From a virus: a stretch of 64,000 nucleotides of DNA. The notes beneath the pieces were generated by a model. The model worked only from the letters and a program-made list of their open reading frames with translations. It ran no database searches and was not told the DNA's origin. Each line of letters opens with the position of its first letter. The first letter of the stretch is position 1. The DNA is taken from IMG/VR virus record IMGVR_UViG_3300008113_000082, positions 5,340 through 69,339 of that record. One strand, given 5' to 3'. Shown in pieces: positions 24,947 through 54,724 of the stretch. Made by a program: the position numbers and the translations under genes.

Positions 24947-24948
24947 TC

Positions 24949-27039: not shown

Positions 27040-27053
27040 TAACGGAATAAACT

Positions 27054-28967: not shown

Positions 28968-28993
28968 TGCACAATATTTTAGGGGCGATTTAA

Positions 28994-31114: not shown

Positions 31115-31125
31115 AAAAAAGTACA

Positions 31126-31133
31126 GATAAATA
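31126..31133 (+). promoter_or_regulatory. T4-type late promoter box (GATAAATA)
   Basis: GATAAATA sits in the 42-bp gap between fibre 3 and fibre 4, 23 bases before the ATG at 31157. GGAG (31146-31149) lies 7 nt before that ATG. Confidence 0.5.
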
Positions 31134-31156
31134 ACAATAGATTATGGAGCAGAGCA

Positions 31157-32971: not shown

Positions 32972-32980
32972 GGAAGAATC

Positions 32981-33925: not shown

Positions 33926-33954
33926 TTGCTTAAATACTCAGTTGGAGAATAAGA

Positions 33955-34875
33955 ATGCCAGTTCATGATACAATCAGCGTACCGGATTATAATAATATAC
34001 GAAATATTATAAATCCTGTTCTCGGCAACGGCGCCGGTACAGCTGGGTACGGCCAAACAGCACTGAGCACTACTACAGTCCTTGGAGATTCTGTATCTAA
34101 AAGTCAATGGGACAGACTCCGCTTTGACATAGTTAATGCTATTGTACATCAAAGCGGAGCGGTACCAAGTATTGTTACAATCAATGAAGGCGATGTAATT
34201 TCTTACGGAGCAGCTCAACCTAATTTTCAGTATCTTACCTTGGCAAATCAAGCTAACACAAATAGATTTGATTTGGGAAACGGGCAGTATGCTACAGAAA
34301 CTAAAGGCACAGCATCATATACTCCAACTTGGCAAAACTCAATTTCAACATCGTTTACAGTAACTTTTACAACAGGCGACGCAGCTAGGCATTTCTTTAA
34401 CACAGGCGGCAAGATTAGATTTGCATCCGCATTCACCCCCAGGGTTAGTAATGCCCAAAATAATGCTTGGCAAACATTGGCAAGTAATATGGGAACTGTT
34501 ACTTTTGGTGGCAATTCTCCGTCTACAAATTTTTATTCGTTAACCAACTCACCTCAAACCTTTTATTCGATATCGTCATCTACTTACACAAGTAATAATA
34601 TATCATTAAGAGCTAGTTGTAATATTCCGTCTAATGCATCCGGCGGAGCAACAGTCATTACATTCACAGTAGTTTGGACTGACGGATATGTGGATCCGGA
34701 CATACTTGCTGGATACCCTCCTAACTTTAATCCGCCAGACGGTACTGTTCAGGGAACAATGGCATTAACCATAAGTCAACTTCGAGCAGTTGGTGCATTG
34801 TACCCAGACCTAACTGCTAATTCTTTTTCAATTCCTTCTCCAATTTACGGTACAATTTCAATAACAGGCGTTTAA
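33955..34875 (+). CDS. Fibre-associated structural protein B (tandem paralogue)
   Basis: 306 aa, paralogous to the previous gene along its length: 'ISVPDYNNIRNIINPVL', 'AGYGQTALS', 'QWDRLRFDIVNAIVHQSG', 'FTVTFTTGDAARHFFNTGG', 'KIRFASAF', 'WTDGYVDPD' and 'ALYPDLTANSFSI'. Main differences lie in the loops after 'SGG/TGG', which may be surface-exposed. GGAG 9 nt upstream supports ATG 33955. The gap before it holds a poor CTTAAATA box (33929-33936) that I do not call a promoter. Structural role is inferred from position. Confidence 0.65.
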   Translation: MPVHDTISVPDYNNIRNIINPVLGNGAGTAGYGQTALSTTTVLGDSVSKSQWDRLRFDIVNAIVHQSGAVPSIVTINEGDVISYGAAQPNFQYLTLANQANTNRFDLGNGQYATETKGTASYTPTWQNSISTSFTVTFTTGDAARHFFNTGGKIRFASAFTPRVSNAQNNAWQTLASNMGTVTFGGNSPSTNFYSLTNSPQTFYSISSSTYTSNNISLRASCNIPSNASGGATVITFTVVWTDGYVDPDILAGYPPNFNPPDGTVQGTMALTISQLRAVGALYPDLTANSFSIPSPIYGTISITGV

Positions 34876-34902: not shown

Positions 34903-34910
34903 CATAAATA
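34903..34910 (+). promoter_or_regulatory. T4-type late promoter box (CATAAATA), head of accessory block
   Basis: CATAAATA sits 26 bases before the ATG at 34937, with TAGGAG as ribosome site. It is the last such box seen on the plus strand. The accessory genes behind it have no clear box of their own, so they probably form one late transcript from here. Confidence 0.5.
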
Positions 34911-34936: not shown

Positions 34937-35287
34937 ATGGAAGCTCTGTTAACTAACGCTTTAGATTTTTCCAATTACAAACAAACACTTGCAATACAAC
35001 GCAAGACTTTAAAAGAACGCATTGACGGCAAATTAACATTTGGTCACAACGGCGGCATCTTTAAAATCAATCAAACACTAATAGCATTTGTACAATTTTT
35101 GATTAGTCAAGAAAGAACCGTGCGTGTGCCTATTATTGATGCAAACGAAAATCCTATTTTAATTGAAGATCTTGTTTCTTTTAAAGACGAAATATTAGAT
35201 AGATATTTTACAGCTACTTACGAGTATTATGAAGAATACGAAAAAATTAAAAAAAGTAGATCTGTGGAAGCATTGGTTGATTTATGA
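34937..35287 (+). CDS. Conserved hypothetical protein
   Basis: 116 aa, acidic, mostly helical by composition. Features are 'QRKTLKERIDGKLTFGHNGG' near residues 20-40 and a C-terminal charged helix ('YEYYEEYEKIKKSRS'). No domain is recognised. It is the first gene of the accessory block and shares a 4-base ATGA overlap with the glycosyltransferase that follows, so it may be translationally coupled to it. It could be a small assembly or cofactor protein; this is a guess. Confidence 0.55.
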   Translation: MEALLTNALDFSNYKQTLAIQRKTLKERIDGKLTFGHNGGIFKINQTLIAFVQFLISQERTVRVPIIDANENPILIEDLVSFKDEILDRYFTATYEYYEEYEKIKKSRSVEALVDL

Positions 35288-36144
35288 ATCGCGGCGGCCT
35301 AATATTTGCTCACAATAGTCGAGATGTTGATTACGCATTATTAGCAGTAATTTCGGGCGGTCTTGCAAAAAAACATCTTGAAATCCCGTTAACTCTTGTA
35401 ACAGACATGTCTACGATTGCTTGGATGAAAGAGTCACAAATATGGGATAAAGCCAATTCTGTATTTGAAAAAATTATATCAATTGAACGTCCGCCGACTA
35501 CAAATACTCGCCGGTTAAATGACGGTACAGAATCTAAAACTGTTCCTTTTTTAAATGCCGGTAGGGCATCTGCTTGGGATTTAACCCCATATGATCAAAC
35601 ATTATTATTAGATTGTGACTACTTGATTTTTTCAGATCAACTCAATAACTATTGGGACATGGAAGATAGTTTATTAATTTCTAAATCTATGAATGATATC
35701 CAAGGAGATAGAATTGGATTTTTAGATAAGAATGTTTCCGAAACTGGCGTTCATTTATTTTGGGCAACCAACGTTATGTTTACCAAAAATCAAGAAAGCA
35801 AAACATTTTTTGATTTAGTAAAATATATTAGAGACAACTACAATCAATATAGTGATATCTATAGATTTGATCCTCGCCAATATCGTAATGATATTGCGTT
35901 TAGCGTAGCAAAACATTTTCTTGATGGATTTGAAACAAACTTTTTGAACACGTTACCACCGTTGTTAACAGTAGTAGATACTGATATGTTGTTTGACATT
36001 AAAGATGGTAGATTAGTATTTCTTATTTCTGACAAGTTAAAAGAAGAAAAATTTACAGCATGCTCGATTAAAGATCAAGATGTACACGTGATGAATAAAC
36101 AAAGTATTGTACGAAACAAAGATAAATTATTGGAGTTAATATGA
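35284..36144 (+). CDS. GT8-like glycosyltransferase 1
   Basis: 286 aa. Typical of GT-A fold enzymes with a nucleotide-sugar site: an N-terminal beta-alpha segment ('GLIFAHNSRDVDYALLAVIS'), then 'TLVTDMST', and a DxD-type metal motif in 'LLLDCDYLIF' (Asp110-Cys-Asp112). After it comes 'FWATNVMFTKNQES' and a C-terminal 'QYRNDIAFSVAKHFLDGF' helix. It would transfer a sugar from a nucleotide-sugar donor; donor and acceptor are unknown. It overlaps the next gene by 4 bases and shares its architecture. No signal peptide or membrane segment, so cytoplasmic. Confidence 0.7.
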   Translation: MNRGGLIFAHNSRDVDYALLAVISGGLAKKHLEIPLTLVTDMSTIAWMKESQIWDKANSVFEKIISIERPPTTNTRRLNDGTESKTVPFLNAGRASAWDLTPYDQTLLLDCDYLIFSDQLNNYWDMEDSLLISKSMNDIQGDRIGFLDKNVSETGVHLFWATNVMFTKNQESKTFFDLVKYIRDNYNQYSDIYRFDPRQYRNDIAFSVAKHFLDGFETNFLNTLPPLLTVVDTDMLFDIKDGRLVFLISDKLKEEKFTACSIKDQDVHVMNKQSIVRNKDKLLELI

Positions 36145-36980
36145 GCTTCGGATATTTAATTATTGTTGCAAAAAACGACGATATAAACTACACTAAATTA
36201 GCGTATTCATTAGCACTTAGTATTAAAAATACACAACCAGACGGTTATAACAATGTAGCATTAGTTACTAATGATATTGAAGCAACTGAAGGTTTAAAAT
36301 CAAAATGGGTATTTGATCACGTCATTGAGTGGGACAAAGAAGCAGGATGGGATGGGCGTAGTTGGATGGATCAGTTAACCCCATTTGATAATACTATTTG
36401 TCTTGATGCTGATATGTTGTTTACTCGTGATGTTAGTCATTGGGCAAAATATTTTATTGAAAACAGCGAGTTGTATGTTGCTAACAATGCATTTACATAT
36501 CGTGGAGAAATGGTAACTAACGACTTTTATCGTACAGCATTTACAAAAAACTTGTTACCTAACTTATATTCTTTTTATACATTCTTTAAAAAGGATTCAG
36601 AGTTAGCTAAAGAATTCTTTACTCTAGGTAGACATATTCTTAAAAATCCAACAGAATTTAAAAATATATTTTGTCTACATTTTAAACCCAAGGTCATTGG
36701 TACTGATGAAGCATTTGCTTTATCTGCAAAGATTTTAGATATTGTTGATGTAATTGCATACAAATTAGATTTTCCAAAAGTTGTACATATGAAACCAATG
36801 GTTCAAAATTGGCCATGGCCGTCTAACCAATGGACTGATCATGTGGGATTTTATTTTAACGTTGACAACGAAATTAAAATTGGAAATTTTAAACAAACAG
36901 ACATTGTGCATTATGTAGAAAAACAACTGATTACCGAAGAAATAATCAGCTTACAGGAAGAAAAATTATGGCAGAAATAG
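36141..36980 (+). CDS. GT8-like glycosyltransferase 2
   Basis: 279 aa. N-terminus 'FGYLIIVAKNDDINYTKLAY' and 'NNVALVTND', then the metal motif in 'ICLDADMLFTRDV' (Asp89-Ala-Asp91). It then has 'ELYVANNAFTYRGE' and a distal 'GTDEAFALSAKILD' acidic segment, as in family 8 and related GT-A enzymes. It pairs with the previous gene (4-base overlap), and the two may add successive sugars. The next gene starts 13 bases inside its 3' end. Confidence 0.7.
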   Translation: MSFGYLIIVAKNDDINYTKLAYSLALSIKNTQPDGYNNVALVTNDIEATEGLKSKWVFDHVIEWDKEAGWDGRSWMDQLTPFDNTICLDADMLFTRDVSHWAKYFIENSELYVANNAFTYRGEMVTNDFYRTAFTKNLLPNLYSFYTFFKKDSELAKEFFTLGRHILKNPTEFKNIFCLHFKPKVIGTDEAFALSAKILDIVDVIAYKLDFPKVVHMKPMVQNWPWPSNQWTDHVGFYFNVDNEIKIGNFKQTDIVHYVEKQLITEEIISLQEEKLWQK

Positions 36981-37549
36981 ACTTTGACGAATGGTTGGCA
37001 AATTATAAACCACCTGAAATAAAATATTATGCAATGTTTGATACTACCACTGGTGAAGTAACAGGGCTGTATCCATCAACTGCATTGCCTGATACAGAAA
37101 ATTTTGTTTCGGTAGATGTCGAGACTGCTCATTTGATCAACGAAGGAAAGGTGAGTTTAAATTCTTGTTTTGTTGACATTGCATCGGGCTCGTTTGAAAT
37201 TGCCGAAATAAAACGATTAACAAAAATTGATGATGTGTTACATAGAATCATGGATCGCATGTATGCTGAATTATTAGAGCCGGATGTGTTAGTAACTCAA
37301 AAAGACAATTCGTTGACTTTTATGATATCAAAAAAATATAAAACACGTAAAATACACTGGGCCGAAAATACTGAAATGTCGTTCCTCATCACAGAATATA
37401 ACGACCCTAATATTGTTAAACACACAATTAAGTTTTCTATTAGTGACTTGATTAAAAACAAACAAATTTTTAAAGATTTAAATCTTGATAAAAAATTTAG
37501 TATCTATACAAAAAGATTATTTCCTGTTTACCTATTTGACAAAAAATGA
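36968..37549 (+). CDS. Hypothetical protein in glycosyltransferase cluster
   Basis: 193 aa. Starts 'AEIDFDEWLANYKPPEIKYY' and 'AMFDTTTGEVTGLYPSTALP', a beta-hairpin-rich N-terminal part that could bind a partner protein. The C-terminal half is basic and beta-rich ('NSLTFMISKKYKTRKIHW'). No known catalytic motif. The start lies inside the previous gene (13-base overlap), and the end overlaps the next ATG by 4 bases, so it is an integral member of the operon. Confidence 0.55.
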   Translation: MAEIDFDEWLANYKPPEIKYYAMFDTTTGEVTGLYPSTALPDTENFVSVDVETAHLINEGKVSLNSCFVDIASGSFEIAEIKRLTKIDDVLHRIMDRMYAELLEPDVLVTQKDNSLTFMISKKYKTRKIHWAENTEMSFLITEYNDPNIVKHTIKFSISDLIKNKQIFKDLNLDKKFSIYTKRLFPVYLFDKK

Positions 37550-38454
37550 AAGTAATAGAATTTGACGTAATATTTCTTAGTTACGATGAACCCAATGCAG
37601 ATTTAAACTATGCAGATCTGTGTGCCAAGGTGCCTTGGGCCAAGCGTGTTCATGGAGTTAAAGGTAGTGACCATGCTCACAAGGCTGCTGCTAATTTAAG
37701 TGAAACAGATTGGTTTGTAACTGTTGATGCTGACAACATTGTAGATCCTAAATTTTTTAATTTAGATCTCGAAATGACCGATCCTAAGATACAAGTTTAT
37801 GGATGGTGTGGCCGCAACGTAATTAACGGATTGCGATACGGAAACGGCGGATTAAAAATTTGGAAAAAAGAGTTTGTGTTGAATATGAAAACACATGAAA
37901 ATTCTGATAGCGATAGAGGCCAGGTTGACTTTTGTTGGGAAGATGGGTACAAAAACTTTCCTATGAGCTTTAGTGATAGCCATGTTACATCCAGCCCGTT
38001 CCACGCATGGCGAGCTGGATTCCGTGAAGGCGTCAAAATGACATTACTTGACGGTGTTAAAGTTCTGCCATCTGAGATTCAAGAACGCATATGGTGGCAC
38101 AATATTCATAGACTGCGTATGTGGAGTACGGTCGGCGCACACGAAGAAAACGGAATATACGCTGTACTTGGTGCTAGGCACGGAACATATATGACCAATT
38201 GCACTGATTGGGACTATGTACAAGTTCGAGATTTTGAAGTTCTTCGAAATATCTATAACGAAGAAATTAAATCAATAGAAAACGATCAAGACAAAATTAT
38301 TGAATTAGTTAAACATTATGGCAATGAATTAAAATATAAACTAGGATTACATTGGGTATACATGGATGCTGATCAAAGCAAATACACATACGACTTATAT
38401 AACGAAACGTTAAATTTAAACGCAACCTATTATAGAATGCCAGAAAATGTATGA
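37546..38454 (+). CDS. GT2-like glycosyltransferase
   Basis: 302 aa. 'FDVIFLSYDEPNADLNYADL' opens a GT-A-type fold, 'WAKRVHGVKGSDHAHKAAA' follows, and the DxD-type motif is 'WFVTVDADNIVDP' (Asp61-Ala-Asp63). The C-terminal part has 'HAWRAGFREGVKM', 'RLRMWSTVGAH' and 'VLGARHGTYM', which reappear in the C-terminal domain of the next gene, so the two are paralogues. Acts in the cytoplasm on an unknown acceptor. Overlaps neighbours by 4 and 8 bases. Confidence 0.72.
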   Translation: MKVIEFDVIFLSYDEPNADLNYADLCAKVPWAKRVHGVKGSDHAHKAAANLSETDWFVTVDADNIVDPKFFNLDLEMTDPKIQVYGWCGRNVINGLRYGNGGLKIWKKEFVLNMKTHENSDSDRGQVDFCWEDGYKNFPMSFSDSHVTSSPFHAWRAGFREGVKMTLLDGVKVLPSEIQERIWWHNIHRLRMWSTVGAHEENGIYAVLGARHGTYMTNCTDWDYVQVRDFEVLRNIYNEEIKSIENDQDKIIELVKHYGNELKYKLGLHWVYMDADQSKYTYDLYNETLNLNATYYRMPENV

Positions 38455-41071
38455 TATATTTTACATTTCTACCGTTTCTTTCGATACTGAAAATTGGTTA
38501 AATTTTAAGTCTCGCTATCCTACGGCTCAACAACTTCGAAATACAACATCGTTTGACCAGATAAAGAAAAAAGCATTTACAAAAATGTTTTGGGTTATTT
38601 GGGATAACATGGTGTTATCTAAAGATTTTGACCTGCAATCTTATTCGGCTACAGAATGGGATAACATGTATATCCATACATTTAAAAACGGGGATTTCAA
38701 AGAAGAAGGGCTTTGCTTGTTTCCCAAAGTCTCTGAAATATCAAAGCGAGAGTTTGACAGCAGATATTTTATAAATCGAAAAGAAATCGACATAGTAGCA
38801 ACAACACCTAAGCCGTACGATATATTTTATATAGATACCCATGAAGAATATCTCAATGCATTAGAGACTAGCACCACTGAGCTATTTTGGATGTCTTCGC
38901 ACAATCTTAAACACGTAGACACGTTTAAATTTGATCTATATTTTAAACAATTAAACGCATTTGACCGAACACAAAATCATGCATTTGTGCATCGAGTTAA
39001 TAATAAAAATTTTTATAATGGTGTATTTTTGTGCAGCACACATTTACCGCTATCTAAAAAAGAAATTAATTATCGTTTTCCTATTGCAAGAAAAGAATGG
39101 GATATTGTAGCAAGTGGTCCTTGCAATTATGAAAGATTTATTGTAGATACTTACGAGGATTATCAAACAGCACTTGCAACAGCAAAAACAGAAATGTTTT
39201 GGTGCGTTTGGGCCGGCGTTGATATTATTGACGAAACTGTCTTTGACTTATATTTTGAATATCACGAACAATACGAGCGTGATACAAACCATGTGTTTAA
39301 AAACATGTGTAATGAAACTGCATCGTATCTTAGTGGTATAGTATTATGCTCCAAAAATAAAACATTATCAAACAGAGAAATTTCTCGGAGATATCTAGTT
39401 GATAAAAAAGAACATGATGTTGTGGCCAGTAGGTATCGATATCCAAAATATAATGTTGCATCGTATGAAGAATACGAAGAGATATTGGCTAACGAAAAAC
39501 AAAAAATGTTTTGGATTGTATGGTCGGATATAGAAGTTATTGATAACACAGTATTTGATTTATACTTTGATCCCAATGACGGAAAATATGATTTTGATCG
39601 AGATATGAATCATGTTTTTAAAAACGCCTGCGATAAAGTTGAATCATATCTTTCTGGTGTAGTGTTATGTTCTAAAAATAAAACTTTATCAAAAAAAGAA
39701 TTTTCTAGAAAGTTTTTAATTGATAAAAAAGAGCATGATGTTGTGGCCAGTAGATATCGTTATCCAAGATACACCGTTTCCTCTTTTGAAGAATACGAAG
39801 ATATACTAGCTAACGAAACACAAAAAATGTTCTGGCTATTGTGGCCTGAAACACATGTTATTGACAATAGTGTATTTGATTTGTACTTTGATCCTAACGA
39901 TGGAAAATATGATTTTGATCGTGAAATGAATCACGTTTTCAAAAATCTCTGCAATGAAAAAGAATCATATCTTGGTGGAATTATTTTATGTTCTAAAAAT
40001 AAAACTTTATCAAAAAAAGAATTTTCTAGAAAGTTTTTAATTGATAAAAAAGAACATGATGTTGTAGCCAGTAGATATCGCTACCCGCAATATACAATTT
40101 CTTCATATGAAGAATACAAAGACATTTTATCTACCGAAACACAAAAAATGTTCTGGGTAAATTGGTCTGAAATAGAAATCACAGACACCACAGTGTTTGA
40201 TTTGTACTTTGATCCTAACGATGGAAAATATGAATTTGATAGAAATATAAATCATGTTTTTGAAAACAAGTTCCGTAATGAAACAAATTATAACGGAATT
40301 ATGCTAATGTCGACAGCTCAAGTAGTGACAAAAAAAGAAATTGATTTTAGATTTTTAATTTCTAAAAAAGAACATGCAGGGATAGTATCTCAAAACAGAT
40401 TGTACGATATTGTGTTTATTAGTTATAACGAGCCAACAGCTGACAAGAATTTTCAAGAATTGCAATTAAGGTTTCCTAACGCTAAACGAGTTCACGGAGT
40501 CAAGGGAATACATCAAGCACACATTAAGGCGGCAGAAATTGCAACAACTGAAATGTTTTGGGTAGTTGACGGTGATGCTATTGTAATTCCTACCTTTGAT
40601 TTTACATATGTCATATCAAGATATGAACGAGATATTGTTCACGTTTGGCAGAGTCAGAATCCATTAAATGACTTGACATACGGGTACGGAGGTGTTAAAC
40701 TATTACCAAGGGACCTCACTTTATCTATGGATGTGGGTTCTACAGATATGACAACATCAATTAGTTCTAGGTTTAAATCAATGCCAGAGGTTAGTAATAT
40801 TACGGCATTTAATACTGATTCTTTTGCTACATGGCGTTCAGCATTTAGAGAGTGTGTAAAATTATCTAGTAAAATTATTAATAGACAAGACAGTACAGAA
40901 ACTATAGAACGATTAGATATTTGGTGTACTGTTGCTGAAGGTAAGTATGCGCAAGATGCAATTAGGGGTGCAATTGCTGGTAGAAAATACGGTGAAGAAA
41001 ATAAAGATAGTCCGGAAATGTTATCAAAGATAAATGACTTTGATTGGTTAAAACAACAACATGAAATTTGA
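38447..41071 (+). CDS. Modular protein: six decayed GT-like modules plus one intact GT2-like domain
   Basis: 874 aa. About residues 653-874 form a GT2-like domain paralogous to the previous gene: 'YDIVFISYNEPTADKNF', 'AKRVHGVKG', 'MFWVVDGDAIVIP' with Asp708-Gly-Asp710, 'ATWRSAFRECVKL' and 'RLDIWCTVAEG'. Before it, six modules start near residues 1, 124, 228, 334, 441 and 548. Each repeats 'T(E/K/Q)MFW...' then 'FDLYF' then 'H.FKN' then 'G(I/V).LCSK.K.LSKKE'. In each, the DxD equivalent has become sequences such as WDNMV or WSDIEV. The repeats therefore look like the core of the same domain without its metal site. Modules 4 and 5 share a nearly identical 95-base stretch. The repeats may act as an acceptor-binding or scaffolding array; this is inference. 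Confidence 0.7.
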   Translation: MYDIFYISTVSFDTENWLNFKSRYPTAQQLRNTTSFDQIKKKAFTKMFWVIWDNMVLSKDFDLQSYSATEWDNMYIHTFKNGDFKEEGLCLFPKVSEISKREFDSRYFINRKEIDIVATTPKPYDIFYIDTHEEYLNALETSTTELFWMSSHNLKHVDTFKFDLYFKQLNAFDRTQNHAFVHRVNNKNFYNGVFLCSTHLPLSKKEINYRFPIARKEWDIVASGPCNYERFIVDTYEDYQTALATAKTEMFWCVWAGVDIIDETVFDLYFEYHEQYERDTNHVFKNMCNETASYLSGIVLCSKNKTLSNREISRRYLVDKKEHDVVASRYRYPKYNVASYEEYEEILANEKQKMFWIVWSDIEVIDNTVFDLYFDPNDGKYDFDRDMNHVFKNACDKVESYLSGVVLCSKNKTLSKKEFSRKFLIDKKEHDVVASRYRYPRYTVSSFEEYEDILANETQKMFWLLWPETHVIDNSVFDLYFDPNDGKYDFDREMNHVFKNLCNEKESYLGGIILCSKNKTLSKKEFSRKFLIDKKEHDVVASRYRYPQYTISSYEEYKDILSTETQKMFWVNWSEIEITDTTVFDLYFDPNDGKYEFDRNINHVFENKFRNETNYNGIMLMSTAQVVTKKEIDFRFLISKKEHAGIVSQNRLYDIVFISYNEPTADKNFQELQLRFPNAKRVHGVKGIHQAHIKAAEIATTEMFWVVDGDAIVIPTFDFTYVISRYERDIVHVWQSQNPLNDLTYGYGGVKLLPRDLTLSMDVGSTDMTTSISSRFKSMPEVSNITAFNTDSFATWRSAFRECVKLSSKIINRQDSTETIERLDIWCTVAEGKYAQDAIRGAIAGRKYGEENKDSPEMLSKINDFDWLKQQHEI
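39665..40080 (+). repeat. Two near-identical 95-bp direct repeats inside the modular GT gene
   Basis: 39665-39759 and 39986-40080 differ at only 2 of 95 positions by my count and are 321 bp (107 codons) apart. They encode the 'LCSKNKTLSKKEFSRKFLID' to 'SRYR' part of modules 4 and 5. A third copy near 39335-39430 (module 3) is more diverged. The near identity points to recent duplication or gene conversion within the gene. Confidence 0.8.
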
Positions 41072-42488
41072 TAGAAACATAAAAGGTAATGAAATTAAAA
41101 AAGTAGATGGGAAATATCAAACCCACTACATGATGGATGCTGAATTCGTTTACAAAGAACTTAACGAAGTAAGTCCAAGTTTTTGTCTAGCTAAATGGTT
41201 CAACGTTAGTATACACATTCCCACTGGACGTACACACAGTTGCTACCATCCTAAGAATCATGCAGTTCCATTAGAAGAAATTGCAATTGATGTGAGTGCT
41301 TTACATAATACCAAATACAAAAAATCACAGAGGCTGTTGATGCTAAGTGGAGTTCGGCCACAAGAATGTGAATTTTGCTGGCAAATAGAAGATAGCGGAA
41401 GTCAGCTTAGTGACAGGGCATATAGAAGCAAAGACATTTGGGAAGAGGGAATTGTTGAAGAAGCATTAGCTATAGGACACGAAGGTAATGCGAATCCTCG
41501 ATACGTTGAAGTTAATTTTAATCAAGCCTGCAATTTCAAATGTGCATATTGTAGTCCACATCTAAGTACAGCATGGATGGACGAGATTAAAAAAGAAGGC
41601 TCTTATGTTTTAAGTGATAGACGGCATAACGATATTTCGTGGATTCAAAACGAAATGCAGATTAATAACGGATCTGATAACCCACACTTAAAAGCATTCT
41701 GGGAATGGTTACCTAAAATTTATCCTACATTACAAACGTTCCGGATGACTGGGGGTGAACCGTTGATGGATAAAAACACGTTCCGCATGTTTGACTATGT
41801 CAAAGAACATCCTAAAGCAGATCTGCATTTAAGTATTACCAGCAATTGTTGCCCTCCTGGCAACCAATGGACCAAATTCTTTTGGGGTCTTAAAGAATTA
41901 ACTGATGCAGATGCAATTGATCACTTTATGCTTTTTTGTAGTTTGGATAATATTGGAGCCCAAGGTGAGTATGTTCGTAACGGATTAGATTTTAAGAAAC
42001 TTGATGCCAATGTTAGAGAATATTTAAAATACAGTCATAAGCACAGTTTAACATTTATTATTACATTTAACGCATTGAGCTACACGGGAATTTATTCTTA
42101 CGTAGAATACATTCTTGAGTTAAGAAAAAAATATAATAAAGATAGACAACTAGTTTGGTTTGATATGCCGCAGTTGCAGGACCCTGATTATTTAAATCCT
42201 AAATTACTTCCGGAATTAATTCCAGAACTAGAACGAGCAATGAAATTTATGATTCATCATAAAGAAGGTCGTTGGAATAGACACAAGGGTTTTAAAGATT
42301 TTGAAATTAGTAAAGTCCAACGATTAATCGATTGGATTAACTCAGATACAGGATTTAATAAAGATCGAGGCATGGAGAATTTTTATAAATTTTTCTCAGA
42401 GCACGATCGTAGACGAGGAACAGATTTTTTAAAAACTTTTCCTGAACTAGAAAACTTCTGGAATAAATGTAAGGACATTGATGGCTAA
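41061..42488 (+). CDS. Radical SAM protein 1, with N-terminal twitch-type cysteine set
   Basis: 475 aa. The radical SAM signature CxxxCxxC is Cys157-Cys161-Cys164 in 'ACNFKCAYC', followed by 'MTGGEPLMD' (GGEP at 231-234). Upstream, Cys42, Cys61, Cys103 and Cys106 ('SFCLAKWF', 'HSCYHP', 'ECEFCW') form a four-cysteine set that would hold a second iron-sulphur cluster. This fits the 'twitch domain-containing radical SAM' family. It would cleave S-adenosylmethionine to a radical and modify an unknown substrate. In most SPASM or twitch enzymes the extra cluster is C-terminal; here the cysteines precede the core. It overlaps the previous gene by 11 bases. A paralogue lies two genes further on. Confidence 0.82.
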   Translation: MKFDRNIKGNEIKKVDGKYQTHYMMDAEFVYKELNEVSPSFCLAKWFNVSIHIPTGRTHSCYHPKNHAVPLEEIAIDVSALHNTKYKKSQRLLMLSGVRPQECEFCWQIEDSGSQLSDRAYRSKDIWEEGIVEEALAIGHEGNANPRYVEVNFNQACNFKCAYCSPHLSTAWMDEIKKEGSYVLSDRRHNDISWIQNEMQINNGSDNPHLKAFWEWLPKIYPTLQTFRMTGGEPLMDKNTFRMFDYVKEHPKADLHLSITSNCCPPGNQWTKFFWGLKELTDADAIDHFMLFCSLDNIGAQGEYVRNGLDFKKLDANVREYLKYSHKHSLTFIITFNALSYTGIYSYVEYILELRKKYNKDRQLVWFDMPQLQDPDYLNPKLLPELIPELERAMKFMIHHKEGRWNRHKGFKDFEISKVQRLIDWINSDTGFNKDRGMENFYKFFSEHDRRRGTDFLKTFPELENFWNKCKDIDG

Positions 42489-43188
42489 AATTTATATTTT
42501 TGGCGATAGCTTTTTTAACAGTGAGCCATACTTTGACCAAGCTACACGCCCGTGGACCACGCAATTAGCTAGCAAATTTTCTGTTATAAATGAAGCGGAT
42601 AGAGGACTAAGTAATCACGAAATCTATCTTAAATTTTTAAAATATATTCATTCGTTTACCCCGTCTGATGTAATTATTTTAGGATGGTCTGATCCATCTC
42701 GATTCTATTTAAATCCGGGAATTCAAAGAACTGAAAGCATGTACAAAATGCATTATAAAAATTTTTATAATAATGAGTTGGAAACATTATATCAAAAAAC
42801 ATTTATGAACGAGGTTAAATCTGTTGTAAAAGAAAAAAATCTTAGATTGTTGGTATTGTGGTCGTTTCCATCGGGATACGCAGGAACTACAAGACAAAAT
42901 CCAAATTGGTTAGATACATTTATGTTTAATATTAATCCAGAGCAATATCAATATGCAGATACATTTGACAACGAAGTACGTCCTGCATTAATTTATATTT
43001 CAAGGAAAGAAGCATCACTTTTCGAAACAGCACAAGCTGTCGTTAATTACTTTCTAAAAGACATTCGACCAAACCATATTAAAGATCAAACAGTACACAA
43101 CGAATTGGTAAAAATAGTAACAGAGTTTGTAGAAACTCGTATATCAGGGCAAGTAGATTTAATTAAAAGGTTAGAAAATGGATCATAA
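42481..43188 (+). CDS. SGNH-hydrolase-like protein 1
   Basis: 235 aa from ATG 42481, preceded by AAGGA 5 nt upstream; the frame is open a little further to a TTG at 42478, which I reject. 'KIYIFGDSFFNSEPYF' gives the block I GDS motif with the Ser nucleophile. 'DVIILGWSDPSRF' fits the later central strand. The C-terminal 'VHNELVKIVTEFV' could supply the block V His, but the Asp-x-x-His pattern is not clear. Family members are esterases, acetyl-transferases or lipases acting on glycans or lipids. It overlaps the radical SAM gene upstream by 8 bases and the next one by 11. Confidence 0.65.
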   Translation: MAKIYIFGDSFFNSEPYFDQATRPWTTQLASKFSVINEADRGLSNHEIYLKFLKYIHSFTPSDVIILGWSDPSRFYLNPGIQRTESMYKMHYKNFYNNELETLYQKTFMNEVKSVVKEKNLRLLVLWSFPSGYAGTTRQNPNWLDTFMFNINPEQYQYADTFDNEVRPALIYISRKEASLFETAQAVVNYFLKDIRPNHIKDQTVHNELVKIVTEFVETRISGQVDLIKRLENGS

Positions 43189-44536
43189 ATTACAATATAT
43201 CAAATTAGTTAGAGACAAATTAAATTCAATTAGTCCTAGCTTTTGTACTATGAAATGGCTGCATCAAACACTGTATCTCCACACAGGAGACAACCACAGT
43301 TGTTATCATCCACGCCCACATCATATTGGATTAGATGAAATAGCTATTGATGCAAGTGCATTACATAATACCAAATGGAAAAAAGAACAACGTAAAAAAA
43401 TGCTTGAAGGTGAACGTCCGGAAGAGTGTTACTACTGTTGGAATATTGAAGATTTGGAAGGAGAGCATATTAGCGATCGTATGATTCACAGTTCTAGCGA
43501 TTATTCTGTACCAATCATTGATGAAGTAGCAGCATTGCCGTGGGATGCTCCTATTAATCCACGTTACTTAGAAGTTAGTTTTGGCAACGGATGTAACTAT
43601 CGTTGCGGGTATTGCTGTCCTCAAGCAAGCACCATGTGGACCGAAGAAATTAAAAAGCACGGCAATTACGATCTAACCTATAATCAATACGGTATTGAGT
43701 TCATGTCTAATGGCACTTACTACGGCCCTAAAGATGAGAACCCATATATTGATGCATTTTGGCGCTGGTGGCCAAGCCTGCGTAACGATCTTCACACACT
43801 AAGAATTACTGGCGGAGAGCCGTTGATGAATCCAGGTGCAATGCAGTTTTTTGACTTGTTAGAAAAAGAACCTGCACCTCAGTTAGAAATTAGTCTCAAC
43901 AGTAATCTAGGAGTGAGCTTTGCTAAAGTAGATGCTTTGATAGTACGTGTACAATCATTACTGACACAAAAGAAAATTCGTAGCTTTAGTTTTTACACCA
44001 GCATCGATAGTTGGGGAGAACAAGCAGAATACATGCGTACAGGATTAGATTGTGTTCATTGGGAACGTAATATGCGAGCTGTACTGGCCACAGGCACCAC
44101 AGTAAACTTCATGTGTACATTTAATGTATTATGTGTTACTAACTTTAAGAGTTTGTTAGAGAAAGTAATTGAATGGCGCAAAGAATTTGGAACAGAAGCT
44201 ATCAAGTTTGATACTCCATATTTGAAAGAGCCTCCACATTGGATGATTAATATTCTTACAGATGATTTCATGCCGTATATGGATGACACATTACAGTTTA
44301 TTAAAGACAGTGAATGGTTAAGCGATCTAGAATATGAAAAATTTAAACGTGTAACAGATTTTATGAAAGCCAAGACTATTCCGGAAGAAAAAATTCAAGC
44401 AGGTCGAAGAGACTTCTATAGTTTTTTTACTGAAAATGACAAACGTCTAAGTACAAACTTATTAGAAACATTTCCCGAATATACAGATTTTTACAATTTG
44501 TGTAAGGATATATACAATAACTATGATAAACGATAA
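43178..44536 (+). CDS. Radical SAM protein 2, with N-terminal twitch-type cysteine set
   Basis: 452 aa, a clear paralogue of radical SAM protein 1. N-terminal cysteines 23, 42, 84 and 87 lie in 'SFCTMKWL', 'HSCYHPRPH' and 'ECYYCW'. The radical SAM signature is Cys139-Cys143-Cys146 in 'GCNYRCGYC', with 'TGGEPLMN' (GGEP 212-215). A run 'SIDSWGEQAEYMRTGLD' matches 'SLDNIGAQGEYVRNGLD' of protein 1. AAAGG precedes the ATG at 43178. Substrate unknown. Confidence 0.82.
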   Translation: MDHKLQYIKLVRDKLNSISPSFCTMKWLHQTLYLHTGDNHSCYHPRPHHIGLDEIAIDASALHNTKWKKEQRKKMLEGERPEECYYCWNIEDLEGEHISDRMIHSSSDYSVPIIDEVAALPWDAPINPRYLEVSFGNGCNYRCGYCCPQASTMWTEEIKKHGNYDLTYNQYGIEFMSNGTYYGPKDENPYIDAFWRWWPSLRNDLHTLRITGGEPLMNPGAMQFFDLLEKEPAPQLEISLNSNLGVSFAKVDALIVRVQSLLTQKKIRSFSFYTSIDSWGEQAEYMRTGLDCVHWERNMRAVLATGTTVNFMCTFNVLCVTNFKSLLEKVIEWRKEFGTEAIKFDTPYLKEPPHWMINILTDDFMPYMDDTLQFIKDSEWLSDLEYEKFKRVTDFMKAKTIPEEKIQAGRRDFYSFFTENDKRLSTNLLETFPEYTDFYNLCKDIYNNYDKR

Positions 44537-45737
44537 TAACAAACATTCTTGGTGCGTTAATGCTGATCATGCAATGAGCGCAAATAATGACGGAACAACA
44601 AAAATTTGTTGCATGATTGAAAATGATGAAGATATGGGTCTTAGCAATAATACCATACAGGAAAATTTTCAAAAAATTGAATTTGTAAAAATTCGAGAAG
44701 AATTACAACAAGGAATTAGAAATAGTAAATGTCGGCTGTGCTGGGAAGAAGAAGACGCCGGCCGCAAGAGTAAACGTCTACGTGACAATGAAAAATATAT
44801 AGGTCATGTAAACAAAGGCGGAGAACCGTTTATTGGTCTTGCTAAGTTTGAATTGAATCTTGGAAATACCTGCAATTTAAAATGTCGTACATGTGCTCCT
44901 CATAGTAGCAGTACATGGATGCAGGAAGATTTTGATGTATATCGATCTAAAGAACTCAATTTTACCTATAAAATCTATGCTCAAGAAATGAAAAAATATC
45001 ATCAAACATTCGATGATGAAAGCCCGTTTTGGGACGACCTAGAAAACAACTTGTCTACTATCAAACAATTTGATTTTTATGGTGGAGAGCCATTTATGAG
45101 CAAGAAGATGTGGAAAACACTTCAGCTTGCGGTAGACAAAGGTTATTCTAAAGACATTGAAGTTCATTATGCAACTAATGCTACTCAATGGCCTACTGAA
45201 AATATTAAAATTTTAAAACATTTTAGACATTTAAATTTAAATTTTAGTATTGACGGTATTGGAGATAAGTTTGAATATGTTCGATATCCTGCTGTATGGG
45301 AAGAAGCAAAAGGCAATATGTTAACAGCATATGAGTTTTCTAAAACTCATCACGATATACATATAAGCTGGTGTGTGACACTAAGCAACATGAACATTTT
45401 TTATCTTCCAGAACAATTGGATGTATTTTATAAAGATTTTAGTCATTTTGGGTTGTATCTAAATTTAGTTCACGGACCCAAATATTTTAATATTTCTTAC
45501 ATGCCAAACGATGTAAAAGAAAAATTAGTTGCTAAATTAGAATCTATTAATCCAGATTATTTGGTTTGGCAGAATTTTTTACCGGGTGTAATTAGTTTTA
45601 TTAAAGCAGGAAAGTATGACGAATATCGATGGAAGCAATTTAAAGAAAAAATTAAACTGCATGACGCTTATCGAAAACAAGATTTTGCAACAACATTCCC
45701 CGAGTGGGCAGAGATTATAGGATTCAATAATGAATAA
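44523..45737 (+). CDS. Radical SAM protein 3, with N-terminal twitch-type cysteine set
   Basis: 404 aa. N-terminal cysteines at 11, 29/30, 70 and 73 ('SWCVNADHAMS', 'KICCMI', 'SKCRLCWEEE') match the 'C...C...CxxCW' order of proteins 1 and 2. The radical SAM signature is Cys117-Cys121-Cys124 ('TCNLKCRTC'), with 'YGGEPFM' (187-190). It has 'SIDGIGDKFEYVRYPAVWEE' where the paralogues have their 'SxDxxGxxxEYxR' segment. It overlaps the previous gene by 14 bases and the next by 8. Function unknown. Confidence 0.8.
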   Translation: MINDNNKHSWCVNADHAMSANNDGTTKICCMIENDEDMGLSNNTIQENFQKIEFVKIREELQQGIRNSKCRLCWEEEDAGRKSKRLRDNEKYIGHVNKGGEPFIGLAKFELNLGNTCNLKCRTCAPHSSSTWMQEDFDVYRSKELNFTYKIYAQEMKKYHQTFDDESPFWDDLENNLSTIKQFDFYGGEPFMSKKMWKTLQLAVDKGYSKDIEVHYATNATQWPTENIKILKHFRHLNLNFSIDGIGDKFEYVRYPAVWEEAKGNMLTAYEFSKTHHDIHISWCVTLSNMNIFYLPEQLDVFYKDFSHFGLYLNLVHGPKYFNISYMPNDVKEKLVAKLESINPDYLVWQNFLPGVISFIKAGKYDEYRWKQFKEKIKLHDAYRKQDFATTFPEWAEIIGFNNE

Positions 45738-46992
45738 CTTTTTTAATTGGGAAGAACTAACTCAAATACACGTTGAGCTAACTAATGCTTGTAATGCAGC
45801 ATGTCCTATGTGTGCTCGGTTTCATTGTAATAGTCCGTTAGTGCGCCCTGACTTAATTATAGAACAAATTACAATTGAAAAATTTAAAAAATATTTTCCA
45901 CCTGAAGTTATTGCTAAATTAGAAATTGTATTATTTTGCGGAGTACATGGTGATCCGGGAATGGCAAAAGATTTGTATGAAATTTGTGAATATATTGCCG
46001 AAACTAATCCCAAGACTGCTGTTCGTATGAATACCAATGGCGGAATGCGTAAGCCTGAGTTTTGGTCAAAGATGGGAAAGTTATTTTCAGAACATAATAA
46101 AGATCACTTTCGTTGGGAGCTCACGTGGAGTATTGACGGCCTTGAAGATACAAATCATATCTATCGAAGAAACGTCGAATGGAAAAATTTAATAGCTAAT
46201 GCACAAGCATTTATTGATGCTGGCGGATTTGCCAATTGGGATTATTTAATTTTTAGACACAACGAACATCAAATAGACGAAGCAATTGAATTATCAAAGA
46301 AAATGGGATTTTCTCGATTCTATCCTAAAAAAGCGTTGGGTGTAGATGATGGTTCTAAATTAGTTAAAATGGCTGCAATGGATCGCGAAGGACAATTAGA
46401 TTATTACATTTATCCTCCAGAAAATCCAAAAAATCGAAATTTAGAAAATGCACTACCAGATGTTAGTAATGTAGACATTTACCCGTTTAGGTTTGAAGAA
46501 TATAAACGTTTAAAAGATGCCGGTGAGTTACATGATACCGGATACTGGAATCGAGTTGATCGTGTTTATGATATATTAGCATCGGAAGATAACAGTTTGT
46601 TAGATTCTGCTGAAATTAAATGTAAAGCAAAAACTATGAATGGCGGCAAAGAAATTTTTATTGACAATCATGGTAGAGTTATACCTTGTTGTTATATGGG
46701 AACACATTTGAACGGAGTACACGGCGATAGTCAAAGTTTACAATTACATCATGAAGTTCGTAAATACGGATGGGAACACTTTGATTTAAATTTACACTCG
46801 TTAAACGAAATTATGGAAGCGCATCACTTAGACAGAGCGTTTACTGATACATGGACCAAGCCTAGCTGCAAAGACGGTAAATTGGCCTATTGTGCTAATA
46901 TCTGCGGAACTTACAGTCGAGTCGATAGAATCTATACACACGAAAAGATGGAAGACAAAGATCGTAATTGGCGTGTAAAAGATGTAAAATGA
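45730..46992 (+). CDS. Radical SAM protein 4, SPASM-type
   Basis: 420 aa. The signature is near the N-terminus: Cys21-Cys25-Cys28 in 'NACNAACPMC'. The glycine-rich SAM site is 'FCGVHGDPGMAKD' instead of GGEP. The extra cysteines are C-terminal: 'EIKCKAK' (~297), 'IPCCYMG' (~319), 'PSCKDGKLAYCANIC' (~379-391). This is the usual SPASM layout, unlike the three preceding proteins. SPASM enzymes modify peptides, proteins or sugars. It ends in a 4-base ATGA overlap with the GT9-like gene. Confidence 0.8.
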   Translation: MNNFFNWEELTQIHVELTNACNAACPMCARFHCNSPLVRPDLIIEQITIEKFKKYFPPEVIAKLEIVLFCGVHGDPGMAKDLYEICEYIAETNPKTAVRMNTNGGMRKPEFWSKMGKLFSEHNKDHFRWELTWSIDGLEDTNHIYRRNVEWKNLIANAQAFIDAGGFANWDYLIFRHNEHQIDEAIELSKKMGFSRFYPKKALGVDDGSKLVKMAAMDREGQLDYYIYPPENPKNRNLENALPDVSNVDIYPFRFEEYKRLKDAGELHDTGYWNRVDRVYDILASEDNSLLDSAEIKCKAKTMNGGKEIFIDNHGRVIPCCYMGTHLNGVHGDSQSLQLHHEVRKYGWEHFDLNLHSLNEIMEAHHLDRAFTDTWTKPSCKDGKLAYCANICGTYSRVDRIYTHEKMEDKDRNWRVKDVK

Positions 46993-47789
46993 GCCCAGTA
47001 AAAACAATAACGTTAGACCATACATGGGAAAGAGGTATGGGAACCGAGTTAATTTTATTGTCAGTTTTATTAGATACCGGTGTGACTGAATTATATGTTT
47101 CACATAAAAGTGTATATCATAGTTTTGTGATATACAAACAAATTTTTAATATCGATGATGATAAATTAACAGTCTTTTTAACAGAAAACAGCACCGGACT
47201 TTTACCAAATGATTTTTTTAAAATGTATAGTCCGTACTATACAGTTCAACGGCCGACCAAGGCTAGACCGTTTATTGGTGTTGCATGTTACACTGACGCA
47301 TCTCAAATTTTTTTAAAGATTATTGAATTTATAAAAATGGCCGGATACGATGTAATAACTATTGATTCAAGAAATACTGATAAAATAACAAAAGCTCACT
47401 TAATAAAAGATTTGTGTGAGTGTGTGATTGGGTATGATGGCGGCATAGCCCATCTATGTCATATGCTTGAAGTTCCATATTTTATGTTACCTTGGCGTAG
47501 TAGACAAAATAATATACCTTCAGAACAATTATTGCATTTAGATAAAAAGACTTATTTTCTTAACAATATAAATGAATTATTATCTTGGAGTAAAAAATAT
47601 TTTAATCAACAGATAACAAAATTAAATGATAATCAAGGTAATAATAAATTTTTATTAGGTAATGATAATGAGACTCCAATGTTTCATGTTAGATTAAATA
47701 ACGAACTATGTCAATTACAGTTTACAGAATCAGAAATGCAGTTTTTATCAACCCTATACCTCAGTCCTGCAATTGGTGGATTTAAATGA
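46989..47789 (+). CDS. GT9-like glycosyltransferase (heptosyltransferase-type)
   Basis: 266 aa from ATG 46989, in 4-base overlap with the previous stop; a start 21 bases earlier is possible but would overlap more. 'TWERGMGTELILLSVLLDTG' near the N-terminus and 'CVIGYDGGIAHLCHMLEVPY' with 'FMLPWRSRQ' near residues 150-185 match the GT9/GT-B donor region 'GxDGGxxHLAxxLxxP' of LPS heptosyltransferases. It is shorter than full-length enzymes of this family (~320-350). Donor and acceptor unknown. Confidence 0.6.
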   Translation: MSPVKTITLDHTWERGMGTELILLSVLLDTGVTELYVSHKSVYHSFVIYKQIFNIDDDKLTVFLTENSTGLLPNDFFKMYSPYYTVQRPTKARPFIGVACYTDASQIFLKIIEFIKMAGYDVITIDSRNTDKITKAHLIKDLCECVIGYDGGIAHLCHMLEVPYFMLPWRSRQNNIPSEQLLHLDKKTYFLNNINELLSWSKKYFNQQITKLNDNQGNNKFLLGNDNETPMFHVRLNNELCQLQFTESEMQFLSTLYLSPAIGGFK

Positions 47790-48535
47790 AAATTCATGCG
47801 TTTGGAGATAGTTTTGTAGTTGGCGATCAGGATGATTTTTTAGATGATAAAAATACTATGCTCGACCCAACGCATGGTATGAACTTTGGTGAAAGAATAA
47901 AATTTTTAAAATACAATGTTAGTTTTGTCGCTCTTATTGCAAAAGAATTAAATGTTGAACTAATAAATCATGCTGAACGAGGATCTGGAAATTTTCCTCA
48001 GCTTGATAAGTTATGGTTAGCATGCAATAATAATCAAATAAATACAAGCGACATGGTGTTGTTTGGTATGACCACAACTACTAGAGATCGAATTGGATGT
48101 AGCAGCATTGAAAAAACAACCAGCAAAAACTATGGAGAGTTTTTAGTTGATCGACAACTGATAAATTCTCACGATCACGGAACTATTGGAATTATTGATC
48201 AGTTTTATATTTTAAGTGTATTGGAAAAAATAAGTAAACTATTTAAAGTACGCATTATTAAATTTAATTTATTTGACAATCCTTCGGATTACACGGATAT
48301 GAATAATATTAATTTTGCAGATTTTATAGGGGCTGACGTAAAAGGCAATACATTAATTGACATTATTAATGATACATGGGGAGACGGAATTAAAAATCCC
48401 TATCATGATCAATTAATAATAAAACAAGGATATGAACAATATTATACATCTAAAAAGCATCCAAGTGTTTTAGGACATCAAAAGATAGCTAATTGGTTTA
48501 TAAAGAATGTAAATTTTAAAAATGAAAATGTTTAA
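47786..48535 (+). CDS. SGNH-hydrolase-like protein 2
   Basis: 249 aa. 'KIHAFGDSFVVGDQDDF' carries the GDS nucleophile. 'NHAERGSGNFPQLDKLW' supplies the Gly/Asn oxyanion blocks, and 'KKHPSVLGHQKIANWF' near the C-terminus is the block V pattern 'HPSxxGHxxxA', here without an obvious Asp two residues before the His. GGTGG precedes the ATG, which overlaps the previous stop (ATGA). Probably an esterase or deacylase acting on a glycan or lipid. Confidence 0.72.
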   Translation: MKIHAFGDSFVVGDQDDFLDDKNTMLDPTHGMNFGERIKFLKYNVSFVALIAKELNVELINHAERGSGNFPQLDKLWLACNNNQINTSDMVLFGMTTTTRDRIGCSSIEKTTSKNYGEFLVDRQLINSHDHGTIGIIDQFYILSVLEKISKLFKVRIIKFNLFDNPSDYTDMNNINFADFIGADVKGNTLIDIINDTWGDGIKNPYHDQLIIKQGYEQYYTSKKHPSVLGHQKIANWFIKNVNFKNENV

Positions 48536-49328
48536 TAGATTAGTTGCTTACGGATGCAGTCACACTGCTGGATCAGAAACTCAAGATGAGGACTATGTAC
48601 CAAACGCCGACTTATTAAAAAAACAGATCGGATGGAGAGAATTTATAAAAAGATACGATCCGGTGTTTTCTAACAACTGGGCAGCGTATGTTAATGCAGG
48701 TAAAGAAAAATCATTTATAAAGCACTTAGCTAATAAATTAAATGTGCCGTACGAAAATCGAGCTATAGTGGGGTCGGGATCGGCGGAACAAATTTATCTA
48801 ATCGAAAAAGATTTAGCAGAAAATCAGATTAAGGATACTGATTTAGTCATTGTTGGAATAACAGGGAAAGAACGATTGTTAAAATTTAATAACGAAAATA
48901 ATCCCGAAACAATTTTATTAGCTCATTCATTTACCTACCCGGACAATCTTAAGGTTTATCAAAATGTATTTTTATCTTATTTTGATGATAAAATAGTTAC
49001 ATTTCAAATGTTAATGCATTATCAATATTTTTTAAATCTAGCAAATACTAAATTAAAAAATCGATTGTATTTTGCTTTTTGCGATAGCTGGGCAATGCGG
49101 TTAGATTACAATCATCCAGAGTTAACTGAACTTCCGGAATCTTTTAAACATTCAATGAAAAGATTGCATACTGAATTTTGTACATCGGAATTTAATTTAT
49201 CAAAATTTGATTTGTATACTTATGCTACTGATGATCGATTACATGGCGGAAATCATGTAAAAGAAATAGCTCATATTGAATTTGCAGATGAACTGTATAA
49301 GAATCTAATTAACAAACTCAATCCTTAA
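48522..49328 (+). CDS. SGNH-hydrolase-like protein 3
   Basis: 268 aa. 'RLVAYGCSHTAGSETQDED' has 'GCSHT' in the place of GDSH, keeping the Ser. 'RAIVGSGSAEQIYL' and 'DLVIVGITGKERLL' follow the order of SGNH blocks II and III. 'DDRLHGGNHVKEIAHIEFAD' near the C-terminus carries Asp-Asp-x-x-His, a credible catalytic pair. It is the last gene of the accessory block and stops 2 bp before the convergent gene at 49331. Substrate unknown. Confidence 0.68.
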   Translation: MKMFNRLVAYGCSHTAGSETQDEDYVPNADLLKKQIGWREFIKRYDPVFSNNWAAYVNAGKEKSFIKHLANKLNVPYENRAIVGSGSAEQIYLIEKDLAENQIKDTDLVIVGITGKERLLKFNNENNPETILLAHSFTYPDNLKVYQNVFLSYFDDKIVTFQMLMHYQYFLNLANTKLKNRLYFAFCDSWAMRLDYNHPELTELPESFKHSMKRLHTEFCTSEFNLSKFDLYTYATDDRLHGGNHVKEIAHIEFADELYKNLINKLNP

Positions 49329-49330
49329 TT

Positions 49331-49636
49331 TTAAAGAATTCGCTTAGTGCCAGAGGCAACATCTTTTTTTAATTTTTCAATATCGATTTCGAAATCGATC
49401 TTTTTAATTTCTTCGTGATATTCTTGAAATAACTCTACTAACTTATCAGCAACCTCATCTGGATCTGATTTTGCCAGCATGTCTGGGACACGAAGCTCCC
49501 ATATTCTACCGTTGTTAAATTCCAATTTAATATTATTGAGATAAGCGACCGGCATAGTATTCATGTACATATCTTCGAATACTTCCGGCCACTCCTTAAT
49601 GATATTTTTTGGCGGCTTAAACAGTTTTTTAGGCAC
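49331..49636 (-). CDS. Conserved T4-like hypothetical protein
   Basis: 101 aa, acidic and lysine-rich. 'NGRIWELRVPDMLAKSDPD' in the middle and a helical C-terminal part ('ELFQEYHEEIKKIDFEIDIE') are the visible features. It is the last gene of a minus-strand set of small conserved genes and overlaps the next gene upstream by 8 bases. No motif gives a function. Confidence 0.6.
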   Translation of the reverse strand: MPKKLFKPPKNIIKEWPEVFEDMYMNTMPVAYLNNIKLEFNNGRIWELRVPDMLAKSDPDEVADKLVELFQEYHEEIKKIDFEIDIEKLKKDVASGTKRIL

Positions 49637-50264
49637 CGGCTTCTTCTGATACCTTTGTCGCTTTCTTTTTAGGTGGATCTAACTCGTCTGCTTGTTTACG
49701 CAAACGTGCAGCTTCTTTGTACATTGCATCGGCTTGACTACGATACGATTTAGCAATATCTAAATCAGTTAATGCTGTATTCTCTGTAGCTTGAGCACGA
49801 ACTGGAGTTTCTGTCTTTGGAACTTCTTTGACTTCTGCTACAGTTTCAATTTTGGTGTTAGTCTCTTTTCCGCCGTTTACCAAGCTAGCAAGATCATCTA
49901 TAGCCATATTCTGTTGTTCAGCAATTAAAACATTTAATTGATCTAATTGAATATCAGATGTCGGTGTAGGCATCATCATAACTTCGTCAGTGGCAACTTT
50001 TTGTAATCGATTATCTGCTTGTAATGCAGATAACATCGGACGACCGTCTGGAAAGTGCCGAATAAACATAATTTCGCCAAATTCGTTAGCTTCTTGACCT
50101 TGACCGCTTTCTAGAAGTGTCATCAGCGCATCGTGATATGAATCAGTCAGCGTTGAAGTTCCCAGTACTAGAGCAGATCCTGAGTCTCCAGGAAGAGTCC
50201 TAAACACTACAATTACCTTCGCCCCTGTATTTTTCATCCTACCGATGTGCTTTAAGTTCTTCAT
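49629..50264 (-). CDS. Conserved marine T4-like core protein, function unknown
   Basis: 211 aa. The N-terminal ~130 residues ('RMKNTGAKVIVVFRTLPGD', 'FIRHFPDGRPMLSALQAD', 'LDQLNVLIAEQQNM') are compact and, from memory, shared by many cyanophages. The C-terminal ~70 residues are Thr/Val/Glu/Lys-rich with a coiled-coil-like 'SYRSQADAMYKEAARLRKQA' and a Lys/Pro tail. It sits between two small conserved genes in a tight operon. Confidence 0.6.
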   Translation of the reverse strand: MKNLKHIGRMKNTGAKVIVVFRTLPGDSGSALVLGTSTLTDSYHDALMTLLESGQGQEANEFGEIMFIRHFPDGRPMLSALQADNRLQKVATDEVMMMPTPTSDIQLDQLNVLIAEQQNMAIDDLASLVNGGKETNTKIETVAEVKEVPKTETPVRAQATENTALTDLDIAKSYRSQADAMYKEAARLRKQADELDPPKKKATKVSEEAGA

Positions 50265-54519: not shown

Positions 54520-54526
54520 ATTACTA

Positions 54527-54724
54527 TTATACACTCTTTTCACTAGTTGTGTCAACCTTTTTGAGTTGCCAGCTACCATCTTTTTGATCAATCCAATTTA
54601 GCGTGTCGCCTTCTTTCCAACCTGCCTTTTCTAACAAGTCGGGCGGGAATGCTATCATGGCATCGCCAGTTTCTGGATCCTCTTCTACCTTAAGAGTCCA
54701 TGAGTTACGTTGTATATTTTCCAT
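54527..54724 (-). CDS. Small AbrB/MazE-like protein
   Basis: 65 aa. 'WTLKVEEDPETGDAMIAFPP' followed by 'DLLEKAGWKEGDTLNWIDQ' is the swapped-hairpin pattern of AbrB/SpoVT/MazE DNA-binding domains. Members act as repressors or antitoxins; no toxin partner is seen beside it. AGAAAGGA upstream of ATG 54724 supports the start. It overlaps the membrane-protein gene upstream by 20 bases and ends 8 bases before queE. Confidence 0.6.
   Translation of the reverse strand: MENIQRNSWTLKVEEDPETGDAMIAFPPDLLEKAGWKEGDTLNWIDQKDGSWQLKKVDTTSEKSV

Follow-up and report, generated by a model that had tools for sequence, protein, structure and literature searches.

Beside their fibre genes, pelagimyophages carry host recognition clusters (HRCs) of glycosyltransferases (GTs), above all of family GT8, together with radical-SAM cassettes (mSystems 2020, PMC7029224), and 12 radical-SAM genes were reported in 2017 in a single marine T4-like genome (PMC5332604). 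Here we analyse a block of 14 open reading frames (ORFs) of related content, located on the plus strand at positions 34937–49328 of a 64,000-nucleotide stretch of viral DNA (bases 5340–69339 of the 113,906-base IMG/VR virus record IMGVR_UViG_3300008113_000082; hereafter, the window). A first-pass annotation of the window had recognized no described T4-like system of this composition, but the two reports above precede it. Like the HRCs, the block is a fibre island of a T4-superfamily phage with several GTs (GT8 foremost) and with radical-SAM cassettes whose presence varies. However, HRCs were described as non-syntenic, whereas the order of the present block (fibre, genes A, B, C, D, E and F, radical SAM) is fixed. 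HRCs are located between VrlC and gp14 in SAR11 myophages. VrlC and gp14 are not among the genes identified in the present record, and by gp6 the phage is, among cultured phages, nearest to the Atu_ph07/SCTP-2/RaK2 jumbo side. Phage-encoded GTs have also been linked to virion-protein glycans in mycobacteriophages (Freeman et al. 2023, through PMC12619734 and PMC11256854); in the portions of these sources that treat that system, the modified proteins are those of the capsid and tail tube, and radical-SAM or SGNH partners are not mentioned.

Our favoured explanation, to which we assign a probability of about one half, is that the block is a late, cytosolic module that modifies proteins of the phage's own distal tail (its fibres). 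The ORFs have ends that overlap or nearly touch, and all 14 were found as first annotated, in one plus-strand operon behind the fibre genes. They encode two GT8-like, one GT2-like, one modular and one GT9-like glycosyltransferase, four radical SAM proteins, three proteins with GDS or GCS motifs, and two proteins of unknown function. Upstream are f222, which encodes a conserved small protein, and six genes for fibre/virion proteins, fib1–fib6 (together 24278–34875, plus strand). The products of fib1–fib4 match tail and virion families in PHROGs, those of fib3 and fib4 also having Peptidase_G2 (IMC)-like C-termini; fib5 and fib6 lack a family match and are named fibres from their position and mutual similarity. 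The far end of the block is bounded by a conserved convergent gene, m211 (49629–50264, minus strand), which is also present in relatives.

The coupling of the block to fibre genes is conserved. When the IMG/VR loci retrieved with gene E alone were searched by tblastn with the window's genes, every one of the 30 distinct loci with enough flanking sequence proved to have a fibre gene and a radical-SAM gene besides A, B, C, D and F; these loci belong to the nearest of at least 598 relatives. Absence or scattering of the block in close relatives, named in the first-pass annotation as a refuting condition, was not observed, and the association with virion genes proposed from gene neighbourhood holds in 30 of 30 independent loci. 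Both GT8 genes and a radical-SAM gene are present in all 65 distinct E loci overall. In more remote marine loci (L163–L169), A, B, C, E and a radical-SAM gene are mostly retained, with D or F often gone; this persistence of GT8, GT8, GT2 and radical SAM together supports the shared pathway suggested in the first-pass annotation. Because identical copies of the block recur in several other IMG/VR contigs (e.g. L004–L006 and L084–L088), it is not an assembly artefact. A tblastn search of INPHARED with A, C, E and F found no match in any phage, and the bearers of the block are large aquatic phages, uncultured and widespread as a group.

The original description of a single block holds for A–F but not for the remainder. 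Among 26 distinct full blocks, the region after F varies, containing extra radical SAMs, SGNH, GT9, AMP-ligase, B12 radical SAM, methyltransferase, 2-oxoglutarate (2OG) oxygenase, epimerase, DegT aminotransferase and C-methyltransferase genes, and in three relatives (L254, L255 and L257) the radical-SAM cassette is on the opposite strand. In partial Mantel tests, distances among A–D genes track those of the flanking genes m211 and m75 (r = 0.82–0.92), those of E and F do so less (r = 0.61–0.68), and those of the first radical-SAM gene do not (r = 0.11–0.13). A–F is a stable core, to which the radical-SAM/SGNH/GT9 genes are joined as a cassette open to exchange.

A late-promoter box (CATAAATA, 34903–34910, plus strand) is situated 34 nt ahead of gene A. 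Six copies of NATAAATA are present on the plus strand of the window, and five of them, including the one before gene A, are just upstream of ORFs. The box at 34903 had been taken for the last on this strand; it is the last outside coding sequence, but an additional NATAAATA occurs at 48037 (plus strand), inside gene M. Among 83 distinct upstream regions from relatives, 57 have NATAAATA and 20 more have TAAATA (77/83), nearly all of them 29–41 nt before A, compared to a chance level for NATAAATA of 0.14 per cent of random positions. The 83 sequences are related, and the recurrence of the box therefore reflects conservation rather than 83 independent events. Such conservation ahead of gene A supports the likely late timing that had been proposed for the block.

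The catalytic motifs of the core enzymes are intact. Gene E (37546–38454) encodes a GT2-like (GT-A) glycosyltransferase with invariant D61/D63, and gene F (38447–41071) encodes a modular GT with six N-terminal modules that lack DxD and one C-terminal GT-A domain, in which D708/D710 are invariant. Pfam/NCBIfam searches with E and F found no convincing match, and a sequence-profile search of the PDB with E, B and C found no meaningful one. The AlphaFold model of F (predicted local distance difference test [pLDDT] score of 83) matches GT-A enzymes in the PDB with E-values down to 6e-5, and protein- and polymer-glycosylating enzymes are matched, including a PBCV-1 capsid GT. The product of gene E is profile-homologous to the C-terminal domain of F (E = 5e-40). 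A GT-A fold with a metal-binding DxD is thus indicated for F by its model and for E by homology to F. The N-terminal modules of F, each of about 105 amino acids, are homologous to its own C-terminal domain (hhalign probability 96.6 per cent, E = 7e-10) and number from one to eight in tandem among 24 relatives; these degenerate GT modules may form a binding arm of variable length. Homologs of E are rare in the alphaproteobacterial chromosomes surveyed (two in 385 genomes). One bacterial homolog (39 per cent identity) is located on a plasmid of Rhodobacter sp. CZR27 (L263, 711846–712772), within a locus for type VI secretion that also encodes VgrG and ImcF. Its position near VgrG, a contractile-tail relative, would fit a role of E in virion modification, as a single case.

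The products of genes B (35284–36144) and C (36141–36980) are GT8-like. Against the PF01501 gathering score of 24.3, B scores 17.6 bits (E = 0.003) and C has no match; the two profiles are mutually homologous (hhalign probability 98.6 per cent). Their DxD motifs (DCD at D110/D112 in B, where it is invariant in 17 sequences, and DAD at D89/D91 in C) are at least 95 per cent conserved. The GT assignments in the block draw on weak family scores, conserved motifs and mutual profile homology, in addition to the model of F. The twitch radical SAM enzymes G (41061–42488), I (43178–44536) and J (44523–45737) are assigned more firmly, scoring 324.6, 292.6 and 301.7 bits against an NF033640 cut-off of 170, more than 120 bits above it, with CxxxCxxC conserved (the cysteines of I are invariant). 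Gene K (45730–46992) falls below the NF033640 cut-off and below that of PF04055 (26.6 versus 29.5 bits), has a weak SPASM match as well, and is labelled radical SAM/SPASM-like; CxxxCxxC and the SPASM cysteines are kept in 13 sequences. The SGNH and GT9 assignments are the least secure of the block and remain putative. The SGNH-like H (42478–43188) and M (47786–48535), with a GDS motif, and N (48522–49328), with the GCS variant, conserve this motif and a C-terminal histidine, and their relatives score below the Pfam cut-offs (E = 0.0017–0.02). The GT9-like gene L (46968–47789) has a TTG start, its first in-frame ATG being codon 8; a relative reaches 17.5 bits (E = 0.0026) against the PF01075 gathering score of 22.

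Two core genes have no assigned function. Gene A (34937–35287, 116 amino acids) heads the operon in relatives (22-sequence alignment), and gene D (36968–37549, 193 amino acids) encodes a beta-rich protein whose divergence equals that of the fibres. Neither A nor D has a significant PHROGs family, and a fold search with the predicted model of D (pLDDT 79) found no significant match. By simple hydropathy, with no dedicated signal-peptide program run, no membrane segment was found in any block protein, including H. The enzymes are therefore probably cytosolic, which would give them access to new proteins, nucleotide sugars or inner-leaflet lipopolysaccharide (LPS).

Among these potential targets, we favour virion proteins because of the late timing and the strict coupling to fibre genes. 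B, C and E, joined by F where it is present, would assemble or transfer a short glycan, with the new fibre or one of the co-expressed proteins A and D as its acceptor, and the modules of F would provide the arm for binding. Tailoring of the sugar or the nearby peptide would follow, by the radical-SAM, SGNH and GT9 enzymes of the exchangeable cassette. A cassette swap would alter the chemical surface of the fibre and leave its fold unchanged. That other cassettes carry sugar and tailoring enzymes (the epimerases, DegT aminotransferase, C-methyltransferase, 2OG oxygenase and B12 radical SAM) is consistent with such a scheme.

Other observations weigh against it. Modification of fibres, or of anything else, by the block is predicted from sequence. 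LPS synthesis is the best-known setting of families GT8 and GT9. The radical-SAM cassette does not track the nearest fibre, and its link to the IMC-type fibre is exploratory (partial r = 0.54, n = 11, one of 14 tests). In three remote marine relatives (L077, L079 and L164), the promoter appears by eye to be sigma-70-like instead of a late box, and timing in some such relatives may differ. Finally, GT8, E and F were sought and not found at the corresponding loci of the cultured phages Atu_ph07 and Phosso.

These two loci share flanks with the block and likewise contain several radical-SAM genes. In both phages, a giant gene is followed by a homolog of f222 (54–56 per cent identity), a fibre gene with a similar N-terminal domain and then radical-SAM genes; a convergent m211 homolog (E = 1e-20) closes the locus in Phosso. 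In contrast to the block, their radical SAMs belong to another subgroup and occur alongside a candidate substrate that bears CHxS repeats. This protein of 296–306 amino acids is encoded between radical-SAM genes (Atu_ph07 gp170, L262:29119–30009; Phosso 289, L261:30415–31335) and ends in CHSSCHASCHNSRSRR or CHTSCHASCHSSRSRR (CHxSCHASCHxSRSRR). The adjoining radical SAM enzyme resembles the peptide maturases DynA, PapB and DarE (E of about 1e-11, far below cut-offs). Virion proteins of Atu_ph07 are reported by Attai et al. (2018) to cluster at coding sequences 170–215; gp170 is the first of this range and, placed there by number, is a candidate virion protein. We regard gp170 and Phosso 289 as plausible candidates for a radical-SAM substrate, and we count the shared locus in favour of a virion target. 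A weak match of the A profile to a cupin-like protein after the fibre in Atu_ph07 and Phosso was dropped (hhalign probability 6 per cent), and a helical partner protein common to these loci and the aquatic cassettes was not supported. In Vibrio phage 2.275.O, the genes beyond f222 encode pectin-lyase-fold proteins, which are candidates for spike-like depolymerases. A fuller proposal, which we advance tentatively, would have the GTs and radical SAMs jointly install and then tailor a tail-fibre modification, with F using a 1–8-module acceptor-binding arm, and the radical-SAM-only version of Atu_ph07 and Phosso performing a RiPP-like (ribosomally synthesized and post-translationally modified peptide) modification of a virion-protein tail.

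Among the alternatives, modification of the host surface deserves the most attention, and we consider it less likely than a fibre target, at perhaps half its weight. Late in infection, the GT8, GT9 and GT2 enzymes would change the core or the O-chain of the LPS, which would spare progeny from loss on debris or exclude rival phages. Such a role was put forward for the HRCs, in which GT8 is the commonest GT (PMC7029224), and relatives of the block carry nucleotide-diphosphate-sugar enzymes. The late box and the lock-step with fibre genes argue for the fibre instead. In Gtr O-antigen seroconversion cassettes, phage GTs act with a membrane flippase and a bactoprenol GT. The block differs in having neither of these nor any other membrane protein, with no transmembrane segment by hydropathy, although this objection would not touch cytosolic GTs of the LPS core.

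A peptide natural product is improbable in our view. Twitch and SPASM enzymes are mostly peptide maturases, and the CHxS tail of gp170 and Phosso 289 suggests that radical SAMs could serve the maturation of a RiPP-like peptide or of a protein's tail, with the GTs as accessories. Yet no CHxS repeats or Cys-rich precursor were found in the window or the aquatic relatives, and in the aquatic block it is the GTs that stay constant. Still less probable is that a hypervariable slot has collected mixed cargo, namely genes of auxiliary metabolism or Fe-S genes that share no pathway. Radical-SAM-rich T4-like genomes have been interpreted in terms of Fe-S metabolism (Nishimura 2017; PMC5332604), and the cassette part is mosaic, but the order of A–F is constant and a radical-SAM gene is always present. 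The least probable alternative is DNA hypermodification by the block's GTs. T4 glycosyltransferases have a known role in DNA modification; against this, the operon is late and adjoins fibres, and the phage's QueE-like radical SAM and GTP cyclohydrolase genes (53653–54591 and 58517–59269, minus strand) point to 7-deazaguanine, the probable DNA modification here. DNA glucosylation was rejected as a leading idea.

The window encodes T4-superfamily proteins, namely baseplate wedge gp6, gp25 and, named by eye, a DNA polymerase and a clamp loader. The nearest cultured phages by the gp6-like protein are the jumbo phages Phosso, Atu_ph07, SCTP-2, XaC1, 121Q and RaK2 (31–35 per cent identity), and relatives of the block sit on contigs of up to about 281 kb; the window is therefore most probably part of a jumbo-phage genome. 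At 9925–24270, it encodes a 4781-amino-acid virion-region protein, which corresponds in position to the giant 'virion structural protein' found in Phosso and Atu_ph07. The 281-kb relative (G001) has 18 NF033640 matches in its single record and, at bases 222000–261999 (L259/L260), a second island in which about 11 radical-SAM genes and oxygenase-, epimerase-, amidinotransferase- and GCS-motif-like genes were recognized by eye. The cultured Vibrio jumbo phage K566 (L258) has several radical-SAM genes, arranged in two groups, close to a PagP-like gene for lipid A acylation.

To judge from the literature searched, four features are new: a core with fixed synteny, the modular pseudo-GT protein F, a cassette open to exchange, and the connection to a radical-SAM locus in culturable phages, where a plausible substrate is encoded. 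Since Phosso (host Sinorhizobium meliloti) and Atu_ph07 can be cultured and have a positional counterpart, part of the question is open to experiment now. If the favoured explanation is true, it would provide the first virion substrate for radical SAM enzymes and a concrete role for radical-SAM genes until now listed as Fe-S or auxiliary metabolic genes, and host recognition in very common uncultured aquatic jumbo phages would hang on chemistry besides protein sequence.

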